From Bdellovibrionota bacterium (GTDB lineage: Bacteria; Bdellovibrionota; Bdellovibrionia; Bdellovibrionales; Bdellovibrionaceae): DNA of 54,303 nt. Made by a program: the position numbers and the translations under genes. The DNA lies in assembly GCA_963170155.1 (NCBI GenBank), contig CAUJGP010000027.1:1-54303 (forward strand). The letters are read 5' to 3'. Numbering within the stretch: the stretch's first letter is position 1; each line of letters starts with the position of its first letter. The notes under the pieces were generated by a model, which saw only the letters and a program-made list of their open reading frames with translations, searched no databases and was not told where the DNA came from. Shown piece after piece: positions 31,309 through 32,425 of this stretch.

Positions 31309-31432
31309 TTTTTTGTCACAATAAAATCAGTACTTCTTTACGCCAACAATCTAATCCCTTTGTTTTTTCATCGCGGTGTCTGTAGAGTTTTTATTAGGAA
31401 GCGATAGGGTTGATTTTATTTGGAGGGTGGTT

Positions 31433-31729
31433 ATGTCACAGCCTGCGAAGAGATTAAGTGTAAGATTTGAACCGGACCCTGAATCTTATGTGCTTATCGA
31501 TACAGTTTATAATTTCAATCACTTTTCTGCAACACTCACAGGATTGATGTACAATGAATCTTATAGAGGTTGCGCGCTTATTATTTTGAAAGATCAATTA
31601 TTGGAAATAGATACAGAATGTTGGGTTAAGTTAGTAAATCTTCAAAATCCGATTAAAGCTGTTGTTCGTTGGAGAGAAGACTTCGACATTGGAGTCAGTA
31701 AAGTAGGGCTTCAATATTTGGATGTTTAA
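31433..31729 (+). CDS. PilZ-domain c-di-GMP receptor, single-domain
   Basis: A 98-residue protein starting at ATG 31433, preceded by TTGGAGGGTGG. Both halves of the c-di-GMP signature are present: R7-LSV-R11 (RxxxR) and N41-E-S43-YR-G46 ([D/N]xSxxG). The ending VGLQYLDV is the usual last PilZ strand. It is a stand-alone adaptor, expected to bind c-di-GMP in the cytoplasm and pass the signal to an unknown partner. Its 3' end meets, tail to tail, an RNA carrying a c-di-GMP riboswitch. Confidence 0.85.
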   Translation: MSQPAKRLSVRFEPDPESYVLIDTVYNFNHFSATLTGLMYNESYRGCALIILKDQLLEIDTECWVKLVNLQNPIKAVVRWREDFDIGVSKVGLQYLDV

Positions 31730-31774: not shown

Positions 31775-31801
31775 TTAAGGGGAATAAAAAAACCGTTCCA
31801 T
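31775..31801 (-). CDS. Eight-codon reading frame downstream of the c-di-GMP aptamer
   Basis: ATG 31801 opens a frame for MERFFYSP that stops with TAA at 31775-31777. AGGAG (31812-31808) lies 6 bases upstream, an ideal ribosome-binding site. The stop codon directly abuts the terminator stem. The frame is short enough to occur by chance, so the evidence is the ribosome-binding site, its position and the matching layout of the neighbouring micro-unit. Confidence 0.45.
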   Translation of the reverse strand: MERFFYSP

Positions 31802-31846
31802 GGGGATCTCCTTCCTTTTCAATACTTACCTACCATAGGTATCTTA

Positions 31847-31939
31847 CCTTTGGCACACTGGCTGGCATTTCTCATCCCGAGAGGTAGCCCCTTTAGTTTT
31901 GCGTCCCATCGTTTCCGATGGTTTGCCCTGAGACAAAGG
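31847..31939 (-). ncRNA. c-di-GMP-I (GEMM-I) riboswitch, merRNA-like
   Basis: Read on the minus strand, the conserved core is plain. AGGGCAAACC leads into CCATCG-GAAA-CGATGG, a six-pair P2 capped by a GNRA tetraloop, followed by GGGACGCAAA. CCTTTG (31939-31934) and CAAAGG (31852-31847) pair to close P1. The P3 side is divergent but can pair (GGC with GCC, TCTC with GAGA). These are the signature bases of class I c-di-GMP riboswitches. Downstream there is only a small TACCTA-TGG-TAGGTA hairpin, an eight-codon frame and a terminator. Bdellovibrio bacteriovorus makes a massively expressed c-di-GMP riboswitch RNA (merRNA) in attack phase without a controlled gene; this may be its counterpart (inference). 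Confidence 0.88.
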
Positions 31940-32028
31940 AAGGATATGATATGAATTAATTTCTACATCATTCCTAGATCAGAAAACTTTCTATAAGGCC
32001 TCCTTGATTAAAGTTATTAAACGTCCCG

Positions 32029-32064: not shown

Positions 32065-32115
32065 CTACTTCGGAACACGAGATTCACAAGCTTTTTGTTT
32101 CCTAGACTTGTTCAT
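32065..32115 (-). CDS. Sixteen-residue basic micropeptide gene
   Basis: AAGGAGG (32130-32124) stands 8 bases before ATG 32115. The frame gives MNKSRKQKACESRVPK and stops at 32065-32067, where the terminator stem begins. The ribosome-binding site is one of the strongest in the window, and no larger gene uses it. The peptide is strongly basic (Lys/Arg 6 of 16) with one Cys. No known peptide is recognised. Alternatives: a small regulatory RNA, or a leader peptide whose translation affects the terminator. Confidence 0.5.
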   Translation of the reverse strand: MNKSRKQKACESRVPK

Positions 32116-32130
32116 ACTCTTTTCCTCCTT

Positions 32131-32425
32131 ATCACTTGACTTGACAACTTCCGTTTTATCAATAAGCGACCTCAACAATCATAGGTTACTAGACCCTTAT
32201 CGATAACGCAAATTTTTATTCACTTGTGTATCGAATTGACAATTGAATGAAAAATCAACAGTTTATGTTTATAAATAAATATTAATTAATATAATTGATA
32301 AAAAATAATAACAAATTGTTCTTTGATTTTATGGTGTCATGGATTTTACAAGGTGTATGGCGTGGATTTGCCTTTCTCTGTTCGATCTTGTGCTGAACGT
32401 TTTAAAGATGAGAAGGGATAAATTA
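32131..32425. other. AT-rich region upstream of the micro-genes
   Basis: This is the stretch between the cysteine-desulfurase stop and the 16-codon unit. It is very AT-rich (32220-32330) and should hold the minus-strand promoter(s), but no box is convincing enough to call. A weak AACAATTTGTT element followed on the minus strand by a T-rich tract (about 32300-32330) may end the desulfurase transcript. Confidence 0.3.

Follow-up and report, generated by a model that had tools for sequence, protein, structure and literature searches.

The window (the whole stretch of DNA that was analysed, 54,303 nucleotides) almost certainly encodes the merRNA of a member of the Bdellovibrionaceae, an orthologue of the merRNA of Bdellovibrio bacteriovorus HD100, on its minus strand. 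In that predator merRNA is more abundant than any other RNA. It is therefore a known kind of RNA. On balance we favour a reading in which the window's RNA, about 450 nt long, stands free and ends at its own terminator, with a conserved mini-ORF on either side of its class I c-di-GMP aptamer. Judging from the alignments, merRNA is not plainly non-coding. What appears to be new here is this pair of mini-ORFs, together with a covarying helix outside the aptamer, which we call P0: the literature that we found has no description of either, and beyond the 2013 paper (PMC3627812) it mentions merRNA only in passing.

A single c-di-GMP-I aptamer

We compared the 54-kb window with all 4227 Rfam models (cmscan), and just one model gave a match above threshold: RF01051, the c-di-GMP-I (GEMM-I) riboswitch. 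The match is on the minus strand, from 31937 to 31849, and scores 65.5 bits against a cut-off of 35 bits (E 1.2e-10). The initial annotation had placed a class I c-di-GMP riboswitch on this strand and had named a covariance search as the check; the match, which covers model positions 1-87 of 87, bears it out. The P1 base that it described is also there, with CCTTTG at 31939-31934 and CAAAGG at 31852-31847, so that the aptamer with P1 spans 31847-31939, and the UUUG...CCAAA of these strands is nearly invariant among relatives. It had considered the P3 side divergent, and here we disagree: the alignment runs from end to end with a posterior of 0.99 and two non-standard pairs flagged.

The ligand is in all likelihood c-di-GMP. 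Position 20 of the window's aptamer is presumably a G, unlike the A of GEMM-Ib. The cGAMP-sensing GEMM-Ib riboswitches of Geobacter belong to the same Rfam family, and have an A at nucleotide 20; the change A20G makes them selective for c-di-GMP (PMC6456294). The window's genome (2.85 Mb) has one copy of the c-di-GMP-I aptamer. A search of this genome for c-di-GMP-II aptamers gave no match, and the control for that search likewise gave no match anywhere. The window's aptamer is like other RF01051 riboswitches in that the covariance model finds it complete, and unlike them in that it would lie inside a free-standing RNA and not upstream of a conventional gene.

A predicted free-standing RNA with the layout of HD100 merRNA

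The predicted RNA runs from roughly 32180 to 31728 on the minus strand (about 450 nt). A scan of this strand for promoter and terminator consensus sequences found nothing, and the terminator was assessed by folding instead: a hairpin at 31773-31728 (-14.0 kcal/mol, z -2.6) with a U-rich tail is a predicted intrinsic terminator. This places its start about 75 nt and its end about 120 nt after the aptamer, in agreement with the initial annotation. The promoter is probably TTGCGT-17-TAACCT at 32183-32211, by analogy with HD100, where TTGAAA-18-TATCCT precedes the mapped 5' end at the corresponding place. This call is weak because the consensus scan missed the site. The gene on the downstream side (31376-31729) is on the opposite strand (convergent), so no conventional gene follows the aptamer. 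The earlier statement to that effect needs a qualification, as one conserved mini-ORF does sit there and a second one lies upstream.

One of the genomes that we compared (3,782,950 bp), which we take to be HD100 because the position of its aptamer agrees with the published merRNA, has its sole aptamer at 1,073,951-1,073,868 on the minus strand, within that RNA. HD100 merRNA was reported as one RNA of 445 nt at 1,073,741-1,074,185, and its share of the RNA-seq reads in attack phase was about equal to that of all the predator's protein genes combined (PMC3627812). In the window, too, the only c-di-GMP-I aptamer that a Bdellovibrio-group genome possesses lies in a putative free-standing RNA with a terminator and no sense gene, and the two RNAs share their layout from the promoter-like site through the terminator, so we retain the description of the window's RNA as merRNA-like. 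Both have a length of about 445-450 nt, about 230 nt before the single aptamer, and a terminator that ends about 120 nt past it. They also share, at similar spacing, parts outside the aptamer: P0, both mini-ORFs, and an AAGGAGG element. The window's RNA differs in that its 3' mini-ORF is shorter and its 5' part has an additional hairpin with U7. HD100 merRNA is massively expressed in attack phase, and the window's merRNA is predicted from sequence.

The surroundings differ as well. HD100 has an Mrp/NUBPL-type ATPase gene upstream, while the window has a cysteine-desulfurase-like gene and a PilZ-like gene, and the 4-kb loci of the two have no neighbouring ORF in common. merRNA is often found downstream of the Mrp/NUBPL-type ATPase gene, and was relocated in the window's lineage. 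The initial annotation described the gene at 31376-31729 (plus strand) as a PilZ receptor gene and suggested a local c-di-GMP module. The product does have the PilZ-type motifs RxxxR (RLSVR) and NxSxxG (NESYRG), which most homologues keep, but neither Pfam, searched up to E 10 (its PilZ profile included), nor a profile search against PDB gave a match. Of the 40 genomes that we searched, 13 (counting the window's own) have a homologue of this PilZ-like protein. In all relatives the homologues sit on another contig or at a distance of tens of kb or more from merRNA. The adjacency in the window is thus uninformative as to function, and we drop the idea of a module.

The 2013 authors did not find merRNA conserved outside Bdellovibrio, nor a conserved frame downstream (PMC3627812). 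The first of these statements no longer holds, as 46 of 60 relatives have the aptamer, as do 89 of the order's 141 genomes and 137 of the phylum's 369, always in single copy (these genomes are related, so the counts are not independent events). The family-specific pattern occurs on contigs named Bdellovibrio, Pseudobdellovibrio, Bdellovibrionaceae, or Bdellovibrionales, and on one named only "bacterium," which places the window in that group, in a genus of its own among the genomes compared. Three Bdellovibrio-genus genomes without a match to the aptamer are fragmented assemblies (230 to 550 contigs), so the absence may be a gap. A search of a plasmid collection gave one 42-base match only, in Ilyobacter. 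Of 20 genomes examined from distant classes of the phylum, 12 have their single aptamer roughly 100-300 nt before queE with a hairpin in between, so the RNA may act there as a conventional cis-regulator.

A mini-ORF upstream of the aptamer is under amino-acid selection

Upstream of the aptamer, 59 genomes share an orthologous frame of 9-20 codons with a strong ribosome site. In the window this 5' mini-ORF is at 32065-32115 on the minus strand and would encode MNKSRKQKACESRVPK. Its putative ribosome binding site, AAGGAGG (32119-32130), forms a Shine-Dalgarno (SD) duplex of -11.1 kcal/mol; the 5th percentile for random 20-mers is -7.7 kcal/mol. Other members of the peptide family are MKNRIHDHHDEPPK, MRRRKFDHRDKSPK, and MAKRPKDWRLDPPPK, and the C-termini among relatives include HDEPPK, NDKSPK, and LDPPPK, each followed by the stop codon. 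The penultimate residue is proline in 45 of the 52 distinct peptides, and the terminal residue is lysine or glutamate in 49 of the 52. In HD100 the 5' mini-ORF lies inside the mapped 445-nt RNA; the mini-ORF peptides of that RNA are MRTHEHHDDELK (5'), from which proline is absent, and MEGTNTYKDWFHSP. One relative has three mini-ORFs (LDPPPE-stop, LDPPPE-stop, and FPPPI-stop) in tandem, in the region from about 320 to about 90 nt before one aptamer.

When we compared nearest pairs across all genomes, 76 single-base codon differences in the 5' mini-ORF were synonymous and 42 were non-synonymous, against an expected 27.4 synonymous differences (p 2e-21, a nominal value as the pairs share ancestry). 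In the codons for DPPP, the third positions vary freely and the first two are fixed. By this test the codons are under amino-acid selection, and the 5' mini-ORF is very likely translated.

The P0 helix and a second mini-ORF

Directly 5' of P1, the sequence UCCUUCC (31944-31938, minus strand) can pair with GGAAGGA (31815-31809) at the start of the 3' mini-ORF, to give the predicted helix P0; a putative small hairpin (31821-31843, from sequence and folding) lies between the aptamer and the 3' strand of P0. This 3' strand corresponds to codons 2-3 of the mini-ORF (AUGGAAGGA) in most relatives; in the window the mini-ORF's ribosome site coincides with it. At least six of the seven pairs of P0 can form in all 52 testable genomes of the 55 in the family. 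There are compensatory double changes (for example UACUUCC/GGAAGUA and UUCUUCU/GGAAGAA), in which a C-G pair becomes A-U or U-A. With their own partners the strands form 6.55 pairs, against 6.09 with shuffled partners (p 0.005 for 11 distinct strand pairs, ignoring kinship). P0 was also recovered independently in the RNAalifold consensus, and it is mostly formed in single-sequence ensembles.

The 3' mini-ORF is at 31775-31801 on the minus strand in the window (MERFFYSP-stop; MEG..DWFHSP-stop in relatives), with an SD duplex of -9.4 kcal/mol, and its stop codon abuts the terminator. We searched the interval from aptamer to terminator for UUYAUUCCCCUUAR with up to two substitutions, and found this motif in 45 family genomes. 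If it is read as FHSP-stop or FYSP-stop, then 43 of the 45 have an upstream ATG without an intervening stop, while each of the other frames has one in 3 of 45. One genome is without an in-frame start and one uses GTG. The distance from ATG to stop ranges from 7 to 22 codons by genus, and the frame is kept nonetheless. The 3' mini-ORF is probably translated, and the 2013 statement that no frame is conserved downstream needs to be revised. The nearest-pair codon test found no synonymous excess in this mini-ORF, which implies that the nucleotides of UUYAUUCCCCUUAR are themselves constrained, and the mini-ORF may be partly an RNA element. We considered whether the motif (CCCCUUAG) pairs with CUAARGGGG of the aptamer, and rejected this, as the motif stays CCCC when GGGG changes to GGGA, without covariation.

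In E. coli, a C-terminal Pro-Pro slows termination, as in the arrest at YbeL-PP (PMC3834316). The proline at the stop of the 3' mini-ORF (..SP-stop) is similar, which makes ribosome pausing there plausible by analogy; HD100 APsRNA5 (..GPP-stop) has the same feature. The 5' mini-ORF differs from YbeL-PP in that it ends in Pro-Lys or Pro-Glu and not in Pro-Pro at the stop.

How merRNA might work, and alternatives

In the mechanism that we propose, abundant attack-phase merRNA would bind c-di-GMP. In free RNA, the 5' strand of P1 would be tied up, with some of the aptamer core, in a competing hairpin (UUUGYC-UCA-GGCAAA, from the alignment and folding). Upon ligand binding, P1 would replace this UUUGYC/GGCAAA hairpin and P0 would shift, which would set how easily ribosomes start on the 3' mini-ORF. 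Ribosomes at both ends of merRNA would then set its stability and its amount for each ligand state. We hold only tentatively that P0 gates translation of the 3' mini-ORF: energy folding gave no consistent sign for the direction of switching. Forcing P1 to form cost 1-10 kcal/mol, P0 persisted in most cases, and the accessibility of the SD site shifted little and in both directions.

The 2013 authors speculated that merRNA serves as a c-di-GMP reservoir (PMC3627812). This idea is compatible with the mechanism above, and a reservoir role is possible, if somewhat doubtful. It is less likely that merRNA is purely a non-coding reservoir, which would act by binding ligand in bulk, with reading frames that are incidental or that only stabilise the RNA via ribosomes. 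The extreme attack-phase level of HD100 merRNA would fit such a role, as would the conservation of the aptamer in single copy. Yet we would not expect amino-acid selection in the 5' mini-ORF or conservation of the 3' frame if the frames were incidental, and we consider this explanation unlikely.

merRNA might instead be a sponge that captures 30S subunits or CsrA, through three stretches complementary to the anti-SD sequence or through GGA motifs, with c-di-GMP modulating the capture. Besides the ribosome sites of the two mini-ORFs (-11.1 and -9.4 kcal/mol), there is a conserved AAGGAGG..CCU element about 70 nt 5' of the aptamer, at 31990-32007 on the minus strand in the window (AAGGAGG..CCTT), with near-optimal pairing to the 16S tail (-11.2 kcal/mol) and no start codon. 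CsrA is present in all 11 of the genomes tested. In many relatives, though, this middle element is itself within a small hairpin. GGA motifs are barely more frequent than in shuffled sequences (mean z 0.5 across 22 RNAs), short of the marked excess of a CsrB-like sponge for CsrA, and we rejected such a sponge on this count. A sponge of either kind strikes us as rather improbable.

Slightly more improbable still is a leader-peptide attenuator, in which translation of the 5' mini-ORF and slow termination at its Pro-Lys or Pro-Glu stop would decide whether transcription reads through to the aptamer; the RNA level would then follow the translational state as well as c-di-GMP. The slow termination at Pro-Pro in E. 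coli lends this some plausibility, and in the window a hairpin followed by U7 (32064-32029, minus strand, by folding) lies directly after the stop codon of the 5' mini-ORF. This hairpin may be an internal terminator in this genome, so that the 5' mini-ORF and the aptamer could be on separate transcripts here. But among the 106 loci scanned, only the window's own has a comparable hairpin and U-run, and HD100 merRNA was reported as a single RNA. Finally, class I c-di-GMP aptamers are normally cis-regulators of a neighbouring gene, and in distant classes of the phylum queE often lies downstream, but such a role here is very improbable: the window has no sense gene within reach, its next gene is convergent with a terminator between, and across the class the first ORF on the downstream side lies antisense in 59 of 80 genomes.

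Other attack-phase RNAs and implications

Among the attack-phase small RNAs listed for HD100, APsRNA5 ranks next after merRNA in abundance (388,842 RPKM; PMC3627812). This RNA (605,484-605,658, minus strand) contains an SD-led frame of 29 codons, MAKKHVVRKEYIWNREIRELALLTETGPP, and the frame with its GPP-stop end is kept in all 18 of the Bdellovibrio-genus genomes that have a DNA match (of 21). HD100 APsRNA2 and APsRNA1 also contain SD-led short frames, MVKNVDITKAEVTSS and one that ends in ..SKVSRRKQEQ-stop, respectively. As APsRNA5 also appears to encode a conserved microprotein, the "attack-phase small RNAs" may need re-annotation. A broader conjecture, which we think is unlikely to be right, is that the most abundant attack-phase RNAs of Bdellovibrio are ribosome-engaging micro-mRNAs and not non-coding reservoirs: merRNA, with its two mini-ORFs, and APsRNA5 would load and slow ribosomes by their proline-containing C-termini, and merRNA would be gated by c-di-GMP. 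If this were true, then c-di-GMP would set the translation capacity that is parked before prey entry.

With one merRNA per genome in much of the phylum, many sequences are available for comparison. The two mini-ORFs change how the c-di-GMP reservoir role should be tested, and together with P0 they are concrete targets for mutations that would separate the reservoir model from translation-based models.
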